This document shows, piece after piece, positions 1 to 38,731 of a stretch of 64,000 bases of DNA. A program made the translations under genes and the position numbers. The stretch spans positions 1,302,001-1,366,000 of the forward strand of contig JAWPMV010000001.1 in the NCBI GenBank assembly GCA_033391075.1. The letters run 5' to 3'. The DNA is from Bacteroidia bacterium. GTDB taxonomy: Bacteria > Bacteroidota > Bacteroidia > J057. Below the pieces are notes generated by a model. It was not told where the DNA came from, searched no databases, and saw nothing but the letters and a program-made list of their open reading frames with translations. How positions within the stretch are numbered: the stretch's first letter is position 1; every line of letters starts with the position of its first letter.

Positions 1-416
1 TAGTTATCATTAGCATCTTTATTATTGGGATCTATCTGAACGGCTTCAAAGAAATAGTTGGCAGCTGCCCGAAACATATTCATATCTCCAGCAGCAACAC
101 CGGCATTATTCCAAAGATTGGCATTGTCAGGGTCCTGGTCTATGGCTTCTTCGTAGTCACTCAAAGCCTGTTCGAATTTTTCTAATTGATAGTAGGCATC
201 TCCACGTGCTTCATAAACATTGGGATGCTTGTCATTCAATTCCACAACTTTGTCAAAGGTCTCAATCGCATCATAGAATTGTCTGTTTTTGAATTGTTGT
301 AGACCTTCCAGATACAATTTTTCGGCGCGAAAAGACCGGATGGTTGGATTTCGATCTTGCGCATTAATCCAAAGAGGAAAGAGAATGAGCGCTGAAAGCA
401 AAAGATTTCGAGTCAT
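1..416 (-). CDS. TPR-repeat secreted protein (3' end outside window)
   Basis: Reading the minus strand from ATG at 416 gives an open frame that runs off the left edge after about 138 codons, so the C-terminus is missing. The protein starts MTRNLLLSALILFPLWINAQ, a Sec signal peptide with a likely cleavage after the AQ pair. Helical TPR-like repeats of about 34 residues follow (for example around EGLQQFKNRQFYDAIETF, EARGDAYYQLEKFEQALS and NNAGVAAGDMNMFRAAANYF), each with the usual small and aromatic residues. TPR proteins act as protein-protein scaffolds; in Bacteroidota many are periplasmic or outer-membrane-associated. No enzymatic motif is visible in the part present. It points the same way as the secreted-protein genes to its right, but a 295-bp gap separates them, so co-transcription is not shown. 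Confidence 0.8.
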   Translation of the reverse strand, partial: MTRNLLLSALILFPLWINAQDRNPTIRSFRAEKLYLEGLQQFKNRQFYDAIETFDKVVELNDKHPNVYEARGDAYYQLEKFEQALSDYEEAIDQDPDNANLWNNAGVAAGDMNMFRAAANYFFEAVQIDPNNKDANDN

Positions 417-617
417 TTTCTTAGGATTTAGCTTTTTCCGAAAAAGGAAGAAGTTTTTTGTTAAATTTTCACTTTAAGTGCAAAGGGTTAAATTGCTCAT
501 TGTTAAGGTGTTTCACTCCTAATTCAGGATGAAGGTAGGAAACAATTATTAATTACACAAAATTGAATGGAAAGAAATTTGCTACCATTCGCGTTTTCGT
601 TTGAGTTTCAAAGCAGA

Positions 618-649
618 ATTATCCCGCCTTTTTGATAAGACGGGATAAT
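618..649 (-). terminator. hairpin in the gap downstream of the first S8 protease
   Basis: The nine bases ATTATCCCG at 618-626 pair with CGGGATAAT at 641-649 around a 14-base loop. It lies about 60 bp past the stop codon of the protease gene ending at 712, on the same transcript strand. There is no clean U-run after it, so it may be a weak terminator or an mRNA end-protecting hairpin. A second small hairpin (664-669 with 676-681) is nearby. Nothing else is seen in the gap 417-711. Confidence 0.4.
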
Positions 650-711
650 TCATGATTTTCCATATAAGCCCTAAAGCTTATTGAATTTTTTATATGTCGG
701 GATAAACTAGC

Positions 712-2841
712 CTAGGGAAGTATATGGAAGCTTTTACTGGATGAAATTCCTTTTTGAGTTCGTAGAATAAGAAAATAAAGTCCTGAATTCCAGTCATTTA
801 AATTAATGACTTTTGTTTGAATATCTGCCGCCCCTCGTAGGGATTCTTCTAATATTTTTCTCCCTTGTACATCTACAATTTCCAGTTTCGCTTGTTTATG
901 TAGGGGAATAAAATACTCAAGCTTAGCTTGATCTTTGGCAGGATTGGGGTAAAGAGAATTGATAAAATATCGGTCTGCAGGGGCTTGTTTCAGTTCCAAA
1001 ACTTCTGAATAAGAAAATGCTCCATTTTGGTCAACTTGCTTGAGACGATAGTAATTTTTAAGAGGGAAAGGTGAGGGGTCAGTGAAGGTATAGTCCTGGA
1101 TATTTGTGCTATTTCCAGCTCCCGCTACTTTCCCGATTTTTTCAAAAGCTCCTCCCTGACTCCTTTGAATTTCAAAATATGCATTATTGTTTTCTAGAGC
1201 AGTAGCCCAATATAAATGGGCCTTATTTTCCTCTATTTTACCCGTGAATTCCAACCATTCGACCGGAAATCCTCCCATAGCAGCGCTAAGGGCATCAAAA
1301 GCATTGAGTCTGCCATAACCTGTTGAATCATTTAAACCTGGACTTCCCATATCAATAGCTGTGCTGGTCAGGATACTTTTTACAGCAACATCCGTAAGGT
1401 TTGAATCCACGGAAATGATCAATGCAGCGATTCCGGAAGCAAATCCACAAGCACTTGAGGTTCCTCCGGCTTCGTCTACATAATTTCCCGTTGTAAAACC
1501 CAAGGCACCCATGCGGTCTATAGTTCTGATATCTGACTGGTCATCGCTTACGGGTACACAGACATCAACTTCCGGCCCAAATGGACAATAGGGGGGAAGA
1601 TCCCCGGTTTTTGTTATGGAGTTTACCGTGAAAACAATGGGATTATTTCCGGGAAAGTTTACACATGTTCTGCCAGGATCATTTTTGCCAGAAGCAAAAA
1701 TAACGATGGCTCCTTTTCCATTTCTCCCTAAAGTCTGGGCATTGTCAATTGCGCTGATAATGGCCGGGAACAAATTGGGGTCGCAAGAAGGATATCCCCA
1801 TGAATTATTGATGATATGTGCCTTTCCCTGGTTCCAAATCCATTCCATTCCGGTGGCTACATAACCCAGGAGGGTAGAAGGGTCTGCTTCGACATAAACC
1901 GGAAGAATCCGGGAATTGGGAGCCAAACCTGCTGCTCCCAGGTTATTATGGGTAGAGGCGATAACTCCTGAAATAGAGACGCCATGACCTTCATATGAAA
2001 ATTGAGGTTCTCCGTTTCCGGTACCTGCTGGCGAAAACCCACTGAGAACCCGGTCTGAATTATCGCTGGGATCTTTCATATCTTCATGAGGCTCTGCTCC
2101 TTCATCTACCATTCCTACGATTACCCAGTCATCTCCCAAAGTAATATCCCAGGCCTCTACGGCATCAATATCCATATCAACAGTTCCGGTTTGTCCGTCT
2201 ACGGTTTGTCCGGTATTATGCAGGGTATACTGTTCCGAGAATTTGGGATCGCTTGGGGTATGATACAATACCGGTTTAGCCATAAAGTTGGGATGAGCCC
2301 AATTCACCATACCGGATTCAAAGAGTTCATTGGCCAAATCCAGGCTATGCATAAGTTTGGAAACCTCTATAAAATAAAGGCCGACTTCGTCCTGTCCTAT
2401 TTTTGCATCTGTATACTTGTCCAGGATTTCCTTTACACGTATATCCTCCCAACTATCACCCGGTTCAAAGAGAATTTGCTCTGATAACCATACGGGCAAA
2501 TATTCATTGATTTCAAAGCCCCAGGAAGCATCTTTTACCATCTCGGGATTTGGGAAGAATTCCTGGATCAGTTTTTCCAGACTTTGCTCTGAAGGTTCTT
2601 TAAGGCGAATAATAATTCGTGGAGTGGCTCCTTGCTTCTTACCATGGACTTCCTCAATCAGGGGATGCGAAGTATTCATGATCTTTTGCCAGGAATAAGC
2701 TCCCTGAAAGTAAACGGAGAGAGAACTTCTGGTCTCATATATAGGCTTTTTCTCCTCGAAAGTATAATAGCCGAGGGTTTGTGCCTGAGATAATGATAGA
2801 AGCAGAGGAAATAAAAGAAAAATTCTAAAGTACCGAGACAT
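712..2841 (-). CDS. subtilisin-like (S8) serine protease with T9SS sorting domain
   Basis: This is a secreted serine endopeptidase of the subtilase family. I start it at ATG 2841 because MSRYFRIFLLFPLLLSLSQA is a good signal peptide; the frame stays open 31 codons further upstream, but that stretch would precede the hydrophobic core. The catalytic triad is visible in 709-residue numbering: Asp246 in GMVDEG, His286 in YEGHGVS and Ser462 in GGTSSACG. The oxyanion Asn lies in HIINNSWG near 345. An N-terminal region of about 200 residues probably acts as propeptide. A beta-rich segment follows the protease (LEFTGKIEENKAHLYW), then a type A T9SS sorting domain with SLYPNPAKDQAKLEY. It is a tandem paralogue of the next gene, and both lie downstream of giant surface-protein genes on the same strand. 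Substrates are unknown; maturation of neighbouring surface proteins or nutrient proteolysis are both possible. Confidence 0.93.
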   Translation of the reverse strand: MSRYFRIFLLFPLLLSLSQAQTLGYYTFEEKKPIYETRSSLSVYFQGAYSWQKIMNTSHPLIEEVHGKKQGATPRIIIRLKEPSEQSLEKLIQEFFPNPEMVKDASWGFEINEYLPVWLSEQILFEPGDSWEDIRVKEILDKYTDAKIGQDEVGLYFIEVSKLMHSLDLANELFESGMVNWAHPNFMAKPVLYHTPSDPKFSEQYTLHNTGQTVDGQTGTVDMDIDAVEAWDITLGDDWVIVGMVDEGAEPHEDMKDPSDNSDRVLSGFSPAGTGNGEPQFSYEGHGVSISGVIASTHNNLGAAGLAPNSRILPVYVEADPSTLLGYVATGMEWIWNQGKAHIINNSWGYPSCDPNLFPAIISAIDNAQTLGRNGKGAIVIFASGKNDPGRTCVNFPGNNPIVFTVNSITKTGDLPPYCPFGPEVDVCVPVSDDQSDIRTIDRMGALGFTTGNYVDEAGGTSSACGFASGIAALIISVDSNLTDVAVKSILTSTAIDMGSPGLNDSTGYGRLNAFDALSAAMGGFPVEWLEFTGKIEENKAHLYWATALENNNAYFEIQRSQGGAFEKIGKVAGAGNSTNIQDYTFTDPSPFPLKNYYRLKQVDQNGAFSYSEVLELKQAPADRYFINSLYPNPAKDQAKLEYFIPLHKQAKLEIVDVQGRKILEESLRGAADIQTKVINLNDWNSGLYFLILRTQKGISSSKSFHILP

Positions 2842-2980
2842 ACAGGCTTTCAATTCTAATTTGATCGAGACGAAACTATTTAATTGAATGGCTAAAAACA
2901 GGCAAATTGTGCTCAATCGCAGGAATAGATGCACAAGTGGAGAAAAGAGACTATTAAATTATCCCGGCATTTCTTTCCTC

Positions 2981-3020
2981 AAAAATAAAAAGGTCTTTCT
3001 ACCCCTGGCAGAAAGACCTT
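2981..3020 (-). terminator. rho-independent terminator after the second S8 protease gene
   Basis: AAGGTCTTTCT (2990-3000) pairs with AGAAAGACCTT (3010-3020), an 11-bp stem with a 9-base loop. Read on the minus strand the stem is followed by TTTTTATTTTTG, a good U-run. It sits 22 bp past the stop of the gene at 3042-5186 and separates the two protease transcripts. Confidence 0.88.
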
Positions 3021-3041
3021 CCCTATCGTTAAAAAATATCT

Positions 3042-5186
3042 TTATCGGCTGATTATGAATCTTTTACTCCGAATATTTCCTTTGCTGCTTTTCATGACAA
3101 GGGTATACATACCTGGACTCAGCTCAGTTACCGAAAGTTCCAGACTTCGGATTCCTTCTCCTGCCTCCAAAGTATGCTGTGCCAGCACTCTTCCCTGAAT
3201 ATCTACTATTTGATAATTCGCAGAAATACCTCTTGGAAGGGCATAGTCGAGATTGATCTGATCTACCGTAGGATTAGGATAAACGTTTGTCATACTCAGG
3301 CTATTGACACGATCTCTGGAAAGTTCGATGACAGCCGAGTAGCTGAATGCCCCATTTTGATCAACCTGTTTGATTCGATAGTAATTGGTTCCAAGAACAG
3401 GATCGCTGTCTGTATAATTGTAGGTGCTCAATTCGGTAGTTGAACCTGCACCCGCTAAGGAACCCAGATCAACAAATTCACCTCCCACGCTTCTTTGGAT
3501 ATCGAAACGTGCATTGTTTTGCTCACTTGCCGTAATCCATTCGAGCCTTACTACATCATTTATCAGTTCTGCTTTAAAGTCAAGCCATTCGACCGGAAAC
3601 CCACCCATTGCAAGGCTTACGGCTGCATCGGCACGCAAAAGACCATTTCCAGTACTGTCATTGAATCCTGGTGAACCCAAACTCATAGCTGTTGTATTCA
3701 TGATGATTTCTACATCCAGGCAAGTCAGATTAGGATCTTCTGAGAGGATCAAGGCTGCTACTCCGGAAGCAACTGCACAAGAGGTTGAGGTCCCACCAAA
3801 AAAGTCTACATAATTACCCAGGTCGAGTCCTTTGCGATTTGCGGCTACCGTTGCCGTATCTTGGCGATCTATTGATCTCACATTAGAGTTGCTTCCTGCA
3901 CTGGGAACTACTACATCCATAGCTGGTCCAAAGGGAGAATAAAAAGGCACATCTCCATTGCCATCCACAGCTCCAACAGTAATTACATTTGGTCTATTTC
4001 CAGGGAAATTGATACAAGTGGTACCCACATCATTTTCACCCGAAGCATAAATCACAACACAACCCTTACCATCTCTTCCCTTGATTTGTGCAGAGTCAAT
4101 AACGTCTACGAATGCGGGATAGAGGTTTTGGTCGCAGGATTTAAATCCATAAGAGTTGTTGATGATGTCAACCTGGGCAACTTTCCACAACCACTGCATA
4201 CCATTTACTGCATCCGAAACTACAGTTGCGGGATTAGCTTCGATATAGGCAGAAATCATCATACTATTTGGCGCTACACCTGCAATTCCCAGATTATTAT
4301 GACTTGCGCCAATCAAACCCGCTACAGATTGGCCATGACCTTCATATGGTAATTGAGATTCGCCTGTACCCACTCCTCCGGGAGCATAACCGGATAGTAG
4401 TCGGGTATTTCCTCCATCGTCTTCCAAATCTTCATGATCTTCTACCCCCTCATCCAGAATCCCAACTAAAATCGAGCTGCTGCCCATACTCAGATCCCAT
4501 GCTTCCGGTGCATTAATATCGATATCTGCTGTTCCGCTTACTCCATCTATTGACTGGCCTGTATTTTCGAATGAATATTGTTTGTCAAACTTGGGATCCA
4601 TCGGATGGTTTAACGTCAAGCCGCCCATAAAGTCAGGCTGGGCCCAATTTACCATCCCAGCTTCAACCAGGGCATTCCCCAGTTCAATACTGTGGATAAG
4701 CTTGCCAACCTGAATAGAAAATAAACCCAATTCATTTTTCTGAAGTCTGGCTTCAGGATACTTAAGGAGAATTGCATCTACGGTTTTCTGATTCCAGTTA
4801 GGGGAGGGATTGTAAAGGAGTTTGTCTGTAAGCCAAACATCCAAACGAGGATTTATGCTAAATCCCCAACTCATATCTTTAACAAAAGATGGGTTGAGAA
4901 TTAGCTCCTGCACCCACTCTTCAAGACTTTTATCGCTTTTCCCATTGAGTTCAAATACGACGTTTTTACTCGGTCTACTCTTTATCCCATGGACTGCTTT
5001 TAGGTCCGGATGATTGCTAACTACAAACTTCTCCCAGGCGACTGCCTGTTTAAATACAATCGAGAAAGAACTTGAATTGATTTTCAAGGGCTTTTTCTTG
5101 TCAAAAGTATAGTAGAAATTGTCTTGAGCTGATACATCAAGAAGCAGAAGGGGAAGCAAAAAAATGAGAAAGTAAATCTTTTTCAT
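3042..5186 (-). CDS. subtilisin-like (S8) serine protease with T9SS sorting domain, paralogue
   Basis: Second member of a tandem pair of secreted subtilases, about 714 residues from ATG 5186 (MKKIYFLIFLLPLLLLDVSA is the signal peptide; an upstream open extension is rejected because it precedes the hydrophobic core). The triad is Asp245 in GILDEG, His284 in YEGHGQSV and Ser467 in GGTSTSCA, with oxyanion Asn near 343 in DIINNSYG. The layout matches the neighbour: N-terminal propeptide-like region, protease, the segment FPVEWLDFKAELINDVVRLE, and a T9SS type A domain containing NVYPNPTVDQINLDYALP. The two proteins share phrases throughout, such as YYRIKQVDQNGAFSYS versus YYRLKQVDQNGAFSYS, which shows gene duplication. 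A strong terminator follows it, so it is probably transcribed separately from the first copy. The substrate is not predictable. Confidence 0.93.
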   Translation of the reverse strand: MKKIYFLIFLLPLLLLDVSAQDNFYYTFDKKKPLKINSSSFSIVFKQAVAWEKFVVSNHPDLKAVHGIKSRPSKNVVFELNGKSDKSLEEWVQELILNPSFVKDMSWGFSINPRLDVWLTDKLLYNPSPNWNQKTVDAILLKYPEARLQKNELGLFSIQVGKLIHSIELGNALVEAGMVNWAQPDFMGGLTLNHPMDPKFDKQYSFENTGQSIDGVSGTADIDINAPEAWDLSMGSSSILVGILDEGVEDHEDLEDDGGNTRLLSGYAPGGVGTGESQLPYEGHGQSVAGLIGASHNNLGIAGVAPNSMMISAYIEANPATVVSDAVNGMQWLWKVAQVDIINNSYGFKSCDQNLYPAFVDVIDSAQIKGRDGKGCVVIYASGENDVGTTCINFPGNRPNVITVGAVDGNGDVPFYSPFGPAMDVVVPSAGSNSNVRSIDRQDTATVAANRKGLDLGNYVDFFGGTSTSCAVASGVAALILSEDPNLTCLDVEIIMNTTAMSLGSPGFNDSTGNGLLRADAAVSLAMGGFPVEWLDFKAELINDVVRLEWITASEQNNARFDIQRSVGGEFVDLGSLAGAGSTTELSTYNYTDSDPVLGTNYYRIKQVDQNGAFSYSAVIELSRDRVNSLSMTNVYPNPTVDQINLDYALPRGISANYQIVDIQGRVLAQHTLEAGEGIRSLELSVTELSPGMYTLVMKSSKGNIRSKRFIISR

Positions 5187-32357: not shown

Positions 32358-35300
32358 ATGAGAAAATTCTATGTCTTATTTCTGTTGAGTGGATTTCTGT
32401 TTTTGAATCATCTGCTCACTGCACAAACACATCCTTTTTCAAAAAAAATGAAAAGCCAGCAGGCAGAGGCTCCGATTGTACGTAGCCCTCAACGTCTGAA
32501 TGGACCCGCTATTCCGGTAAATATCGGTCGGTTTCCTCAACAATCTTATACCTATAAAAGTATTCCAGGTTCTCCGGGATTGAAAGTTGATAGAAGCTGG
32601 TTGAACAATCAAAGCAAAACTCAGGTTTTATCCTGGGGGGATCATGGATTGCCGATTCATATATATAGCAAGGTACAGGGAAGCCATGCCAAAGCGATTG
32701 CAGCTTCGGATCAGCTCTTGTTTCAACAAAGTATCGCTCACCTAAATAGTATTCAGGCGATTTTAGGTTTGAAGGATCCTTCCCGAGAACTACAATTAAA
32801 AGATATAGAAAGAGACAATCTGGGATTTGCTCATATAAAACTATCTCAGGTTTATCAGGGAATACCACTCTATGCCTCAGAAATGAGTCTGCATTATAGC
32901 CCCGATAATGAAATCATCATGACCGGGCGTTATCAACCTACTCCAAGCCTAACGGACATACATCCGAACCTGGATGTAGATGCTGCTATTCAGGTAGCGA
33001 TGAATGAACTTGCCAATGAAGTTCATGTGAGAGAATTGACAGAAGCTGAGCAGGAACTCCTGAACTATGTGGCTCCTCAAACTCAATTGGTGATTTATGA
33101 AACTTCAGGATTTCTACGCCAACAAAAGCTTGCCTGGCATTTGGTGATCCGTCCCAATCTCCTACATCGCTGGGAATACATAATAGATGCCAAAACGGGG
33201 GAAATCCTCAATGAGTTCGATCATACCTGTACCATTGGCCCGGTTAGCGGATCAGGTCAGGATTTGAATGGTCAGAATCAGACGCTCAGGTTGTATGAAT
33301 TTGGTACGAATCAATATACCATGATCAACAGCCAAACCTCTATGTATAAATTTCCCAATGATCCCAATCGTCAACCCAATGGAGGAGATGGAGTTATTGT
33401 TACACTTGACTGGCAAAACAATCGGGTCAATAACAATAATTTTGTGGAGGTTACTTCTAATAATATAAATAACTGGAGCAACGTAAGTGTATCTGCCCAT
33501 AATAATGCCGCTGTCGTTTACGAATACTTTGAAAATACTTTTGGCCGTCAGTCTTATGATGGACAGGGAGGAGATTTGATTTCATTTATTAATGTAGCAG
33601 ATGATGATGGAGGGGGTTTTGACAATGCTTTCTGGAATGGTGCTGCTATGTTTTATGGGAATGGACGTCAGGCCTTTTCTCCTTTGGCGGGCGCACTGGA
33701 TGTTGCTGCACATGAGATTGCACATGGGGTAGTCCAGGAAACGGCCAACCTGGTTTATCAGGATGAACCCGGAGCTTTGAATGAATCTTTTGCAGATGTA
33801 TTTGGGGTTTTGGTGGACAGGGATGATTTTGGATTGGGAGAAGATATTATTCCCAATACAAACATCTTCCCAACTGGTCTCCTGAGAGATGTAAGTAATC
33901 CTAATAATGGATTCCCCGCGGGCTCAAATCCTTTACAAACTAATGGCTATCAACCCGCCAATGTAAGTGAGCAATTCAGAGGTACGCAGGACAATGGAGG
34001 GGTACATATCAATAGTGGTATCCCTAATAAGGCCTTCCACAACTTTGCTACCTCAACCTCCAAAGCAATTGCGGAGCAGGTTTATTACCGGGCTTTGACT
34101 CAATACATGACACGTTCGTCCAAATTCATTGACTGTCGTATCGCTGTGATTCAGGCTGCTTCTGATTTACATGGAGCCAATTCTTCTCAGGTAACTGCCG
34201 CCAGAGCTGCCTTCGACGCAGTAGGTATAACAGATGGATCAGGGACCAATACCAATCCAACCGTTCCGGTCAATCCCGGTAATGAATCAATCGTCAGTTC
34301 TGATGTGAATGCGGGAGACCCCAATACTTTGTACGTATCAACTAGTACGGGTACCGATTTTATGCCTTTAAGCCAATCTACCCACAGAAAGAAAATCTCT
34401 GTAACGGATGATGGAAGCACAGGTTATTTTGCAGACAGTACGGGGAGCATCCACCAGATCAGCATGAATCCGAATAGTCCCAGCGACCAGATTTTATTTG
34501 CGAATCAGGGATGGCCGGCATTTGATAATGTGGCAGTATCTAAAGATGGGTCGAAATTGGCCATGTTGACAACCTTGGTAGATACGAGTATGTACATCGT
34601 TTCTTTTACCCGAAATGAATTCCTGATTTATAAACTCTTCAATCCTACCACTGCACAGGGAGTAAGTACGGGAGATGTTCTTTTTGCTGATGTGATTTCC
34701 TGGGATTTAAGTGGAGAAAATGTTCTATATGATGGATTCAATATCATTCGAAGCCCTAATAGCGCCGATATCGAATACTGGGATTTAGGCTTGATCAGGG
34801 TTTGGGACAACTCCACTGGAAATTTTGGAGACGGACAGGTATTTAAGCTCTTCTCAGGTTTACAGCCTGGAGAAAGTGTGGGGAATGCAGTTTTCTCTAA
34901 AAACTCTCCCAATGTGATAGCCTTCGATTTCTTTAATAATACTACAAATGAAAACCTGGTTATGGCCGCCAACATTGAGACAGGAGCTTTAGGGACTATT
35001 TTCCAAAATTCACAACTGGGCTATCCAACCTATTCTGTAAATGATGGACAATTGCTATTTGATACACCTGTTACTTCTCAAGGCCAAACTGTACCCGGTA
35101 TAGCAGTGATTGACCTGGCAGCTGATAAAATCAATCCTGCAGGTAATGCCGCATCGGCTCTGATAGCTCAGGGACGTTGGGCTGAGTGGTATGCAGACGG
35201 ACAACGTGATACCAATACAGGATTAGAAGAATATGTGGAGGAATCCAGCTTATCTTTATTCCCCAATCCGACTACAAACTTCCTGAGAGTGGAATATGAG

Positions 35301-35495
35301 CTGAAGGAAACTGCCGAAGTACAAATTGAGGTATTGGATATGCTTGGGAATAGAGTATCAAGTCAGAATGCAAATACCCGAGGAATAGGTATCAATACGG
35401 AAGAGATTTCTGTGGCTGATTTGCCTGCAGGAATTTATCTGCTTCAACTGCAGGTAGAGGACGGGAGCCAAACGCTGAAATTTGTGAAGCAGTAA
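32358..35495 (+). CDS. secreted M4 (thermolysin-like) metalloprotease with T9SS domain
   Basis: This 1,045-residue zinc endopeptidase has a signal peptide (MRKFYVLFLLSGFLFLNHLL) and an FTP/PepSY-type propeptide up to about residue 290. The catalytic domain carries HEIAH at 452-456 with Glu453 as the catalytic base, zinc-ligand Glu476 in NESFAD 20 residues after His456, and GGVHINSGIPNKAF holding the thermolysin-type catalytic His near 557. After the peptidase C-terminal domain there is a beta-propeller-like segment of about 300 residues (for example VSKDGSKLAMLTTLVDTS, TolB-like). A T9SS type A sorting domain follows with LFPNPTTNFLRVEYEL. The protein should be exported across both membranes by T9SS and processed outside. 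A propeller between peptidase and sorting domain is less usual than PKD or FN3 modules. Confidence 0.94.
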   Translation: MRKFYVLFLLSGFLFLNHLLTAQTHPFSKKMKSQQAEAPIVRSPQRLNGPAIPVNIGRFPQQSYTYKSIPGSPGLKVDRSWLNNQSKTQVLSWGDHGLPIHIYSKVQGSHAKAIAASDQLLFQQSIAHLNSIQAILGLKDPSRELQLKDIERDNLGFAHIKLSQVYQGIPLYASEMSLHYSPDNEIIMTGRYQPTPSLTDIHPNLDVDAAIQVAMNELANEVHVRELTEAEQELLNYVAPQTQLVIYETSGFLRQQKLAWHLVIRPNLLHRWEYIIDAKTGEILNEFDHTCTIGPVSGSGQDLNGQNQTLRLYEFGTNQYTMINSQTSMYKFPNDPNRQPNGGDGVIVTLDWQNNRVNNNNFVEVTSNNINNWSNVSVSAHNNAAVVYEYFENTFGRQSYDGQGGDLISFINVADDDGGGFDNAFWNGAAMFYGNGRQAFSPLAGALDVAAHEIAHGVVQETANLVYQDEPGALNESFADVFGVLVDRDDFGLGEDIIPNTNIFPTGLLRDVSNPNNGFPAGSNPLQTNGYQPANVSEQFRGTQDNGGVHINSGIPNKAFHNFATSTSKAIAEQVYYRALTQYMTRSSKFIDCRIAVIQAASDLHGANSSQVTAARAAFDAVGITDGSGTNTNPTVPVNPGNESIVSSDVNAGDPNTLYVSTSTGTDFMPLSQSTHRKKISVTDDGSTGYFADSTGSIHQISMNPNSPSDQILFANQGWPAFDNVAVSKDGSKLAMLTTLVDTSMYIVSFTRNEFLIYKLFNPTTAQGVSTGDVLFADVISWDLSGENVLYDGFNIIRSPNSADIEYWDLGLIRVWDNSTGNFGDGQVFKLFSGLQPGESVGNAVFSKNSPNVIAFDFFNNTTNENLVMAANIETGALGTIFQNSQLGYPTYSVNDGQLLFDTPVTSQGQTVPGIAVIDLAADKINPAGNAASALIAQGRWAEWYADGQRDTNTGLEEYVEESSLSLFPNPTTNFLRVEYELKETAEVQIEVLDMLGNRVSSQNANTRGIGINTEEISVADLPAGIYLLQLQVEDGSQTLKFVKQ

Positions 35496-35602: not shown

Positions 35603-35632
35603 AAAAAAGGCCCTGATTCCAGGGCCTTTTTT
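35603..35632. terminator. bidirectional rho-independent terminator
   Basis: GGCCCTG (35609-35615) and CAGGGCC (35620-35626) form a GC-rich stem with an ATTC loop, flanked by six A before and six T after. It works in both directions, serving the M4 protease gene (+) and the cupin gene (-), whose stop codon overlaps its edge. Confidence 0.9.
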
Positions 35633-36386
35633 AATGATGGCTTTCTTTGCCGTATTTCTTTAAAGCAGTTTCTACCTCCAAAATGGGTACACGCATCTTT
35701 CCATTGCCCAGTTCTTCCTTTTCATACATATCCAGGTTGTAGATATCATATTGCTTCCCATTCAGATCCAGCATGATTACATCAAAGGTAAATGCCTGAT
35801 CAGTATTTGCTACAAACCAGTGGACATTGTCCCGTTCATCTGATATAGTAGAGCAATCGCCTCTTTTAATGTGTTGATCTGAACTGGGAGAAATGATCAT
35901 ATGATTTTCCTCTTGTCCATGATTGTTATAATTCCTCAGTTGCATTTCTCCCTTTAGAATCAAATGAGCAGAACTCATATTGGCATGTCCGTGAGGAATG
36001 ATGGCTCTCCCTTTTTTCATCCCAAAGATTTTTTTGGTAAAGGCCGTCCGGCTGGGAAGCCCTTCTAATTTGGGAAACTTGACATAGCGTGTCGCGACTC
36101 CAAGGTCGGGATATTCAAAACCCTTGATGAGTTCCTCAAATTTGATAAAACGCAATAATTCCTCCAGTTCAATCTTTTGGTAGAGGGCCTCTATCTTGTT
36201 CTGCCATTCTGAGGGACTAATTCCTGCTTTTCTCAGGTCCTTACAATAGCTTTCGAGGTCCAATGCCCAATGCTCGATAATGGGCTTTACCTGATAGCTA
36301 AAAGCCTCTGTAAGAAAGAGAGAATCGAATAGTGCATAGCTTGTTACACTTTTTATCAGATGTTGACTGAAGTCTCTCCGTTTCAT
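35631..36386 (-). CDS. cupin-domain protein, possible Tat substrate
   Basis: The 251-residue protein begins MKRRDFSQHLIKS, a twin-arginine-like start, followed by a weakly hydrophobic stretch (VTSYALFDSLFL). Export by the Tat route is possible but not certain. The middle is helical. A cupin beta-barrel follows: the first motif is in IPHGHANMSSAHLILKGEM (His, His and Glu as potential metal ligands) and the second in RDNVHWFVANTDQ. The exact substrate cannot be read from this. It is 11 bp downstream of the sodium:solute symporter gene and very likely in its operon, so it may act on or sense the imported compound. No cysteine-dioxygenase or germin-type fingerprint is complete. Confidence 0.75.
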   Translation of the reverse strand: MKRRDFSQHLIKSVTSYALFDSLFLTEAFSYQVKPIIEHWALDLESYCKDLRKAGISPSEWQNKIEALYQKIELEELLRFIKFEELIKGFEYPDLGVATRYVKFPKLEGLPSRTAFTKKIFGMKKGRAIIPHGHANMSSAHLILKGEMQLRNYNNHGQEENHMIISPSSDQHIKRGDCSTISDERDNVHWFVANTDQAFTFDVIMLDLNGKQYDIYNLDMYEKEELGNGKMRVPILEVETALKKYGKESHH

Positions 36387-36397
36387 GATCTATAAAT

Positions 36398-37984
36398 TTA
36401 GAGTTTGACGAATTCGAGTTTTTTCGGAGGAAATCGATTTTGGGTAAATCTTGAAACAAGGAGGATCGATACCAGTCCACTCAACATGGCAAGGCTTCGG
36501 AAAGGAAATAGGACGGTCCCTTCTTCTACCATAGGATAGGGGATAAGAACGGGAATGCCGAGTATAGGCTCCCCTCCGCCAAAACGTAGAATAGCAGCTA
36601 CAAAAAAGCCAGCTATAGCACCTGCTTTATTAGCTTTTGGGTCAAAGAGTGCGCAAACAAGAGCTGGGAAAAGCAAGCAGTACACAAAGTCGCTACAGAG
36701 GTACCAAAGGGCATATACACTTTCGACTTTTAAAGAAAGGAAAGTAGCAGTTATGCCAATGATGTAAACAAAGCGTTTGATCATTTTGCTCAATTCCTCA
36801 TCTTTCAAATCGGGTTTGATAAGGGGACGATAAACGTTCCAGGCAGATAAGGAGGAGGCCGAAAGGATAGAAGAATCTATAGAGGACATCACTGCTGCTG
36901 CCAGACTTGCGAGGCCAAGTAAAGCGACCCAGGGATGGGTGAGATGTTTAAAAACATAAGGAAGGATATGAGCAGCTGTTTCTGGACCTTCCAATCCCAT
37001 AGTTCCCCACTCTGTAACCCCGCCAACCATACCAATCATGGCGGCAGGAGTCGCAACGAGTATGCATATTACCCCTGCAGCTATAGATAACCACATGGCA
37101 GTCTTTTCATTTTTGGCGGCAAGTACTCGCTGGAAATACACCTGCCAGGGAATTCCGCCCAGCATGAGTAAAAGGGCAAAATCCCACCAGTTCCAAAAAT
37201 AATCGCCCATGCTTTCATAGTCGGGTAGGAGGGAAGCGGCACTTCCATGCTTTTCTACATAAAGGGGCCATACTTCATTCATGCCTCCAACAGCACTCAG
37301 AACAATAGGCAATACCAGAAAAAGTCCCAGGATCAGCAATCCCAATTGTACGATATCTGTATAGGCTACAGATTTTAGTCCACCAATCCCTGTATAAACA
37401 ATAGCTACCAAAGCGGATATAATAATGGCGCTATCTGTATTGATCCCCAGGATAATCGAAAAGGTCGTTCCCAAAGCAGTAAGGATGGCTGCAATCCAGA
37501 ATATTTCGCCCATCACAGCTGGAATGAAAAAGAGACCTGTACTCTTGTCTCCAAATCTTTGTTCGAGGGGATCCAGCATAGTTCGGAACTGGTAGCGTCT
37601 CATTTTTCTTGCGAAAAACAGACCCCCTATGATAAGGCTTACTGCATATCCCCAGGGAGCCTGAACCCAGAGTAGACCACTGGATGCAGCAACTTCTGCA
37701 GTCCCGTTTATGAAACCACCACCAATCCAGGTAGCGGCCATCGTAAAGACCGAAATCCAAAGGGGAAGCTTTCGTCCAGCTAGCAGGAAGTTGTCGGTTT
37801 TGTTTTCCTCTGACTTATCTCCTGCCCAAATTCCTATAGCAAAAATGAGGTAATAAAAGAGTACGACTACGATCAATCCAGCCAGGTCCAGTTCAAAAAC
37901 CCACCTTCCTATGACGATCAATATGGCAGCAATAAGCAAGCTTAAGGCTGCAAAAATTCGGGGCTTTTTGTCTGGCTTAATCAA
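36398..37984 (-). CDS. CHT1-like sodium:solute symporter, probable choline transporter
   Basis: This 528-residue inner-membrane protein has about 13 hydrophobic helices and belongs to the SSS family. Two features resemble animal high-affinity choline transporter CHT1 (SLC5A7) as I remember it: TWIGGGFINGTAEVAASSGL and the later run from TMLDPLEQRFG through GEIFWIAAIL to GGLKSVAYTDIVQLG. Sodium-coupled choline uptake is therefore the best guess. It starts with TTG at 37984-37982, preceded by AAGGA (37992-37996) at a 7-base spacing; no ATG is available nearby. It is divergent from phosphatidylcholine synthase 48 bp away, which uses choline as substrate. The cupin gene follows in the same operon. 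Other small cationic or organic solutes cannot be excluded. Confidence 0.88.
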   Translation of the reverse strand: MIKPDKKPRIFAALSLLIAAILIVIGRWVFELDLAGLIVVVLFYYLIFAIGIWAGDKSEENKTDNFLLAGRKLPLWISVFTMAATWIGGGFINGTAEVAASSGLLWVQAPWGYAVSLIIGGLFFARKMRRYQFRTMLDPLEQRFGDKSTGLFFIPAVMGEIFWIAAILTALGTTFSIILGINTDSAIIISALVAIVYTGIGGLKSVAYTDIVQLGLLILGLFLVLPIVLSAVGGMNEVWPLYVEKHGSAASLLPDYESMGDYFWNWWDFALLLMLGGIPWQVYFQRVLAAKNEKTAMWLSIAAGVICILVATPAAMIGMVGGVTEWGTMGLEGPETAAHILPYVFKHLTHPWVALLGLASLAAAVMSSIDSSILSASSLSAWNVYRPLIKPDLKDEELSKMIKRFVYIIGITATFLSLKVESVYALWYLCSDFVYCLLFPALVCALFDPKANKAGAIAGFFVAAILRFGGGEPILGIPVLIPYPMVEEGTVLFPFRSLAMLSGLVSILLVSRFTQNRFPPKKLEFVKL

Positions 37985-37991
37985 TTTGGAT

Positions 37992-37996
37992 TCCTT
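37992..37996 (-). promoter_or_regulatory. Shine-Dalgarno supporting a TTG start of the symporter
   Basis: AAGGA on the minus strand lies 7 bases before TTG 37984. Shine-Dalgarno sequences are rare in this window, so its presence decides this start. The whole divergent gap to the phosphatidylcholine synthase start is 48 bp and must hold both promoters. Confidence 0.55.
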
Positions 37997-38032
37997 TTAG
38001 TATTTTGCGCAAATTAATTGTGAAACAGGAGT

Positions 38033-38731
38033 TTGCCTAAACTATCAGATAAAATCGCCGCCTGGGGCGTCCACATCTTCACCTCGCTTGGACTTTTTAC
38101 AGGTTTCCTTGCCATCATTGCTATTACTGAAAAGTCATGGCCTCTAGCTTTCTTTTGGCTATTTATCAGCTTTATCATAGATGGAGTTGATGGAAGCCTT
38201 GCACGGAAATTTAAGGTAAAAGAGGTACTTCCTTATATGGATGGCAAAAACATCGATTATGTGATTGATTTTGCCAATTATGCCATCATACCTGTCTTTT
38301 TCTTCTATGAGGCGCAGATGGTCCCGGAAATATGGATGTACCCTTGTTTGGCTGTTATGCTACTTTCCTCTGCCCTTTATTATGGAAAAGAAGGCATGGT
38401 AGCAGATAATGAATACTTCGTAGGATTTCCGGTTTTATGGAATTTGGTTGTTTTCTTCGGCTTCTTTGTTTTTCATAATATCCCTGAACTCAATATTTTC
38501 CTGACCTTCTTTTTCGGCATACTTCATTTCATTCCGATCAAATATGCCTACCCCAGCCATTCCAAGAAATACTTCTGGCTACATCTGGTAGCTACTATAG
38601 CCTTTTTCTTTCTGGCAGCTGCACTTCTCTACTATTATCCTCAGGAAATATTAGCCCTGGAAATCGCTTTGGTCCTTATTGTAGTTTACTTTGGTGCCGT
38701 AGCTGTTTTAGACACCTGGTTCAATAATTAA
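38033..38731 (+). CDS. pcs: phosphatidylcholine synthase
   Basis: A 232-residue integral membrane CDP-alcohol phosphatidyltransferase. The family motif DGxDGxxAR...G..xD...D is seen as DGVDGSLARKFKVKEVLPYM followed by DGKNIDYVIDFANY. The LPYxDGxxxD arrangement is the bacterial phosphatidylcholine synthase (Pcs) variant, which condenses CDP-diacylglycerol with choline to make phosphatidylcholine and CMP. About eight hydrophobic helices cover the rest. The only start after the in-frame stop at 38021 is TTG 38033; an AGGAG (38027-38031) sits just 1 base before it, an unusually short spacing. The divergent CHT1-like symporter would supply choline. Its 3' end overlaps the convergent PBP1A gene by 4 bp. 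Confidence 0.9.
   Translation: MPKLSDKIAAWGVHIFTSLGLFTGFLAIIAITEKSWPLAFFWLFISFIIDGVDGSLARKFKVKEVLPYMDGKNIDYVIDFANYAIIPVFFFYEAQMVPEIWMYPCLAVMLLSSALYYGKEGMVADNEYFVGFPVLWNLVVFFGFFVFHNIPELNIFLTFFFGILHFIPIKYAYPSHSKKYFWLHLVATIAFFFLAAALLYYYPQEILALEIALVLIVVYFGAVAVLDTWFNN

Follow-up and report, generated by a model that had tools for sequence, protein, structure and literature searches.

The stretch of DNA analysed here (the window, 64,000 nucleotides) belongs to a genome of 9.49 Mb in five contigs and contains two divergent genes separated by 48 bp. On the minus strand, 36398-37984 encodes a predicted Na+/choline symporter of the CHT (SLC5A7-like) type, a protein of 528 amino acids that matches the Pfam SSF family with E 5.6e-42, while the gene on the plus strand, 38033-38731, encodes a predicted phosphatidylcholine synthase, Pcs, of 232 amino acids that matches the Pfam CDP-alcohol phosphatidyltransferase family with E 3.3e-07. 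The first listed start is TTG in both cases; for Pcs no start further out is possible, since the reading frame is closed by a TGA four codons upstream. The intergenic region (37985-38032) is presumed, from its position only, to hold both promoters; it and the two genes lie exactly where a preliminary description of this DNA had placed them. A foreign base composition for the pair was considered and rejected, given G+C values of 0.45 for CHT and 0.40 for Pcs as compared with 0.43 for the window. Just upstream in coordinates, a 1045-aa protein (32358-35495, plus strand) appears by eye to have a stretch similar to HExxH and, at its C-terminus, a tail resembling a Bacteroidota secretion sorting domain.

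A cupin-fold gene (35631-36386, minus strand) lies 11 bp downstream of the symporter gene and may be co-transcribed with it in the window. It gives weak matches to the PCO_ADO and WbuC-type cupin families, both below cut-off. The preliminary description had suggested that this gene might be a third member of a choline module, a proposal that we reject: no homologue of the gene was found (E <= 1e-5) at any of 80 CHT loci, taken as the closest 80 of 266 relatives, and G002 and G004, two genomes of the same family as that of the window, keep the cupin and carry neither CHT nor Pcs, in G002 within a different gene context. We judge the cupin to lie outside the module discussed below.

In order to place the symporter we compared it by phmmer with all solved structures. 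The highest score is that of sfCHT from Salimicrobium flavidum (PDB 9rws; 629 bits, E 5.7e-188), with an alignment that spans almost the whole protein. This CHT comes from another phylum and was characterised in 2026, when choline uptake driven by an inward Na+ gradient, block by HC-3 and loss of activity in a W99A mutant were shown for it (PMC13220886). Human CHT1 scores 387 bits (E 8.5e-115 and 1e-114), with 44.7% identity over 481 aligned residues, whereas the next-best solved match, vSGLT, reaches 69 bits (E 2.5e-18) and the sodium/glucose, multivitamin, sialate-type and iodide symporters do not exceed this value. The resemblance to animal CHT1 that had been pointed out earlier is thus, as judged by alignment, far beyond chance. 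The window's genome contains 23 match rows to the SSF family, which correspond, on our reading, to 20 open frames, three of them divided between two rows each; nine of the others, taken for comparison, are 23-27% identical to the symporter. An AlphaFold2 model of the symporter (mean pLDDT 70.6, from only 7 sequences) was too weak to use; a LeuT fold is nevertheless likely, given that the protein aligns at length and with a high score to a solved structure of this fold.

Residue roles established for human CHT1 (PMC11589582) were transferred to the window symporter through the phmmer alignment. The choline pocket of the human protein is lined by the aromatics W62, Y67, Y91, W141, W254 and W406 (PMC11589582), five of which are kept in the window protein, Y67 being replaced by F91. 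All of the Na+-site side chains are retained, S367 and S368 in place of human S346 and S347 at Na2, and D210, D370 and S371 in place of D188, D349 and S350 at Na3 (PMC11589582). The exit-path residues R47, Q259 and R260 are kept as well, and S263, the fourth residue named for this path (PMC13220886), is changed to A. Fifteen positions were checked across the 80 nearest homologues (S263 is outside the 15), and all are invariant in 80/80 with the exception of that of Y67, where 63 homologues have Y and 17 have F, the latter in genomes both with and without Pcs. Mutation of Y67 to alanine kills human CHT1.

The product of 38033-38731 is matched by five NCBIfam phosphatidylcholine synthase models with scores of 113-150 bits, as opposed to 39 bits for the PssA model. 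Each of the five is named for a single lineage, and in all cases the score of the window protein is below the model's own cut-off of 300-440 bits (at best 149.8 versus 350). When one such model was run over an even sample of the phylum none of the 26 matching genomes reached its cut-off. It is because the curated cut-offs are missed, the models are lineage-named and 0/26 genomes pass that we refer to the protein as a Pcs homologue, albeit one that, on sequence grounds, very likely works as Pcs. Its motif, DGSLARKFKVKEVLPYMDGKNIDYVID at residue 53, is an exact fit to DGX2ARX8PX3GX3DX3D, given for the Legionella enzyme (PMC7867332), and the motif is present in the window protein and in all 48 of the homologues that neighbour a CHT gene. 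It was not found in the genome's PssA (101 bits versus a cut-off of 107) or in its second CDP-alcohol transferase, where the spacing is shorter and there is no such P. The AlphaFold2 model of Pcs (pLDDT 93.3, pTM 0.90) has a predicted CDP-alcohol phosphotransferase fold, with phosphatidylserine synthase (7b1k, 7pow) as the best Foldseek match at a query TM of 0.64-0.67; a profile search of PDB sequences found no solved Pcs. The exact motif and the margin of the five Pcs models over PssA bear out the earlier naming of the divergent gene as Pcs.

These details bear on a reading in which the symporter carries some other quaternary amine, such as betaine or carnitine, and the Pcs-like enzyme uses another head group to make a different lipid. 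The change of Y67 to F falls within the pocket, the window Pcs is only ∼40-60% identical even to its nearest partner homologues and lies below every Pcs cut-off, and some Pcs homologues may not make phosphatidylcholine (PC) (PMC10434233). However, the five other pocket aromatics and every Na+-site side chain are kept, F occupies the Y67 position in 17/80 homologues irrespective of whether Pcs is present, the Pcs motif is exact, and the linkage of other CHT members to BetAB, described below, points to choline. We consider this alternative decidedly unlikely.

The recurrence of the pair was established in two ways. In an even sample of the GTDB phylum (395 genomes; E <= 1e-10 for Pcs and E <= 1e-70 for CHT) the Pcs model matches 26/395 genomes and CHT 8/395, and all 8 of the CHT genomes also have Pcs. 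The corresponding hypergeometric probability is 1.1e-10, a value that ignores kinship and overstates independence in that five of the 8 CHT genomes are from one genus. The two genes are divergent neighbours in 4 of the 8, the window included, and lie on different contigs in the other 4. The synteny of the pair in related genomes, proposed in the preliminary description as a check, was then assessed in a scan of named genomes, many of them draft metagenome bins, using the CHT alignment and the closest 80 of 266 relatives. A tblastn search placed Pcs within 6 kb of CHT in 48/80 of these loci; a count of neighbours by ORF calling gave 45/79, missing L082 and others, and the tblastn count is preferred. 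Pcs is upstream on the opposite strand in 45 of the 48 loci, upstream and co-directional in 2 (L073 and L142, Pcs then CHT) and downstream and co-directional in 1 (L128, CHT then Pcs). The aligned ends of the two genes are separated by <=500 bp in 37 loci, 35 of them divergent, and among the 43 loci with a full 6 kb of upstream sequence 27 have Pcs. By family the 48 loci comprise 30 from Saprospiraceae, 5 from Haliscomenobacteraceae, 4 from Lewinellaceae, 2 from Balneolaceae and 7 from genomes to which no family name is assigned. Among the carriers of the pair are the cultured strains Flavilitoribacter nigricans DSM 23189, Phaeodactylibacter xiamenensis KD52 and Rhodohalobacter sulfatireducens WB101 (L082, L109 and L138). 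Apart from CHT itself and Pcs, the most frequent family among the neighbours occurs at 9/88 loci.

With Pcs close by in 48/80 loci, in three arrangements, and CHT accompanied by Pcs in 8/8 genomes of the phylum sample, it is scarcely credible that two unrelated genes came to lie side by side in the window by chance, and we reject this explanation, even though Pcs is found in 0/12 of the other genomes of the window's family that were searched. The functional link between transporter and synthase put forward at the outset is supported by the same counts. In 22 of the 32 loci without a nearby Pcs the genome has Pcs elsewhere, in some cases owing to contigs that end early. More distant Pcs homologues from further genomes of the phylum (L071, L036, L065, L069, L070, L072 and similar) sit in other gene contexts and CHT is not alongside; no transporter could be recognised by eye beside the distant Pcs at 16 loci, most with ∼1.5 kb of flanking sequence.

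Phylogenetic trees of the two proteins point to a shared history. The window CHT belongs to an eight-member clade (SH-aLRT 100) with Pcs nearby in 8/8, and in a separate tree of Pcs the window protein groups with the other seven members of that clade (L073-L077, L079 and L083; SH-aLRT 99). The Pcs alignment (A2) consists of the window and 38 of 43 references, L091, L099, L138, L146 and L148 having been excluded either because they are near-duplicates or by choice; Pcs rows that end at contig ends or have no listed start had been dropped from the references. Distances in the two trees are correlated over 49 rows (r 0.66, a value reached in 0/999 permutations), which shows that the genes have travelled together and not that they interact, since shared descent of whole genomes also yields such a correlation. 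Along the CHT tree the presence or absence of a neighbouring Pcs switches a minimum of 15 times, as compared with a mean of 26.0 for shuffled states, of which 0/500 were as low, so that the pairing is either often lost or often made.

Within the window's order (22 genomes) a match to the Pcs model is found only in the window's own genome and CHT only there and in G010. In a separate search, weak matches to the window Pcs, with E 2.7e-7 or worse, were obtained from 11/59 other genomes. The pair may have arrived in the window's genome by transfer. G010, which is from the same family, has a CHT that is 57% identical to that of the window and derives from another branch of the CHT tree, and it lacks Pcs. 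Its CHT gene (L182:7832-9373, plus strand) is divergent from a Sulfotransfer_5 gene (L182:7076-7807, minus strand; 78 bits) that occupies the place taken elsewhere by Pcs. No such gene was found in 93 other loci searched; choline sulphate synthesis is our guess as to its role.

Because G010 and 10/80 of the CHT genomes (L102, L115, L117, L119, L131, L133, L135, L141, L144 and L151) have no Pcs, it is clear that CHT does not always serve this enzyme. In six of the ten a betaine-aldehyde dehydrogenase gene adjoins CHT, namely those of Cerina (L119), Algoriphagus chordae (L131), Arenibacter (L133), Echinicola (L135) and A. aquimarinus (L141 and L144). The six dehydrogenases pass the NF009725 cut-off of 593 with 760-775 bits and fall just short of the TIGR01804 cut-off of 668.6 with 641-666 bits. 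BetA (TIGR01810, cut-off 732) is also present in three of the six, scoring 823 in L119, 832 in L133 and 819 in L135; in L141 the GMC gene reaches no more than 321 bits against BetA, that of L144 has no BetA match at E <= 1e-150, and no GMC gene was called beside CHT in L131. In L102, L115, L117 and L151 neither BetA nor betaine-aldehyde dehydrogenase was found beside CHT. Of loci from genomes that do have Pcs, L113 (Balneolaceae, Pcs elsewhere) has CHT followed by BetA at 780 bits, and in L142 (positions 3-3916) a single strand carries Pcs, then CHT, then a GMC oxidoreductase that misses the cut-off with 504 bits, an order that reads as if choline were split between PC and oxidation. That CHT accompanies two different choline-using pathways argues for choline as its solute, the BetB linkage providing a second, independent sign.

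The same linkage suggests a reading in which choline is imported mainly for oxidation to glycine betaine, an osmoprotectant, and the adjacency of Pcs is secondary. CHT adjoins BetA and BetB genes above cut-off (TIGR01810, NF009725) in Cerina, Arenibacter and Echinicola and a BetB gene in three Algoriphagus loci, osmoadaptation is suggested by the sfCHT authors (PMC13220886), and the window's genome has two BetA-like GMC oxidoreductases. The latter, however, score 526 and 509 bits against the BetA cut-off of 732, the aldehyde dehydrogenase that adjoins the first of them has only 237 bits against the BADH cut-off of 668.6 and is not BADH, none of these genes is near CHT, and in the window's own CHT clade Pcs is nearby without exception. 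Betaine production as the main purpose of import is therefore unlikely. Choline oxidation could still occur in this organism, because the first GMC oxidoreductase exceeds the NF002550 cut-off for the choline dehydrogenase subfamily (617.9 versus 605). A 613-aa SSF symporter of the same genome that is not CHT-like is encoded by a gene overlapping the start of a BetA-like GMC oxidoreductase gene on the same strand (G000:C1, 2540437-2543908; L180:4437-7908). No match to choline kinase was found in the window's genome, a point in favour of the Pcs route. Four matches to the PEMT family make a methylation route to PC possible as well; the family also includes other methyltransferases.

Taken at the level of sequence, the protein families, the retained binding and catalytic residues and the recurrent pairing of the two genes are established. 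From them we infer that choline is the actual substrate of both proteins and PC the product in the cell, and we think it likely, with good confidence, that CHT and Pcs form a choline-to-phosphatidylcholine module. The symporter would import choline using the Na+ gradient and the membrane enzyme Pcs, divergently transcribed, would condense it with CDP-diacylglycerol to yield PC and CMP; PC would be made only if the surroundings supply choline, and the 48-bp gap may provide for shared regulation of the two genes. Of the module as first described, the CHT-type transporter, Pcs and the link between them have been retained, the cupin has been removed, and formation of PC from imported choline is what the retained parts would predict. 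The accompanying statement that PC is uncommon in Bacteroidota needs qualifying. There are records of PC for Rhodothermus, Aliifodinibius and Fodinibius, genera that some authors put in separate phyla, and of a lipid named 'diphosphatidylcholin' for Salinibacteraceae, while the polar lipids given for other Bacteroidota are mostly lipids other than PC (PMC5167729); Pcs matches, as noted, extend to 26/395 genomes. For Lewinella, Rhodohalobacter and Saprospiraceae we found nothing specific on PC in the open-licence literature.

The pair is both real and recurrent; its parts are known, and what is new is the way in which they are combined. We found no report of it in the open-licence literature, subscription papers being mostly outside the search. 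The supply of Pcs by a choline importer is known from rhizobia and Brucella, where imported choline is likewise joined to CDP-diacylglycerol by Pcs; there, however, the importer is the ABC system ChoXWV with its binding protein (PMC8371380, PMC10434233), whereas in the window it is a single-protein Na+ symporter back to back with pcs. Human CHT1, with which the window symporter shares the pocket and Na+ sites save for Y67, feeds acetylcholine synthesis, whereas the partner gene in the window is predicted to make a phospholipid. The available parts of the paper on sfCHT, the closest solved relative, mention no link to Pcs or PC, 'phosphatidylcholine' appearing once and 'operon' never (PMC13220886). 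The CHT proteins of Cerina, Arenibacter, Echinicola and Algoriphagus, ∼58-61% identical to that of the window, are likewise beside a choline-using pathway, but their partner genes oxidise choline toward betaine and their genomes have no Pcs match.

Bacteria that carry the CHT-Pcs pair thus probably use environmental choline to make a membrane lipid resembling that of eukaryotes. More broadly, we lean towards a picture in which CHT is, in Saprospiraceae and allied lineages, a plug-in choline importer paired by evolution with either Pcs, for membrane PC, or BetAB, for osmoprotection, the pairing with Pcs changing the membrane toward eukaryote-like PC in response to choline from algae, animals or decaying matter. 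If true, this would account for what bacterial CHT proteins do in the cell; the sfCHT authors call the physiological roles of prokaryotic homologues unclear (PMC13220886). For many prokaryotic CHTs the pair suggests a role that is specific and testable, the supply of choline for PC in Bacteroidota; it singles out Saprospiraceae, Lewinellaceae and Haliscomenobacteraceae as groups that are likely to make PC, and it would provide the Pcs pathway with a second kind of importer besides the ABC system ChoXWV, one that consists of a single protein and can be probed with HC-3.
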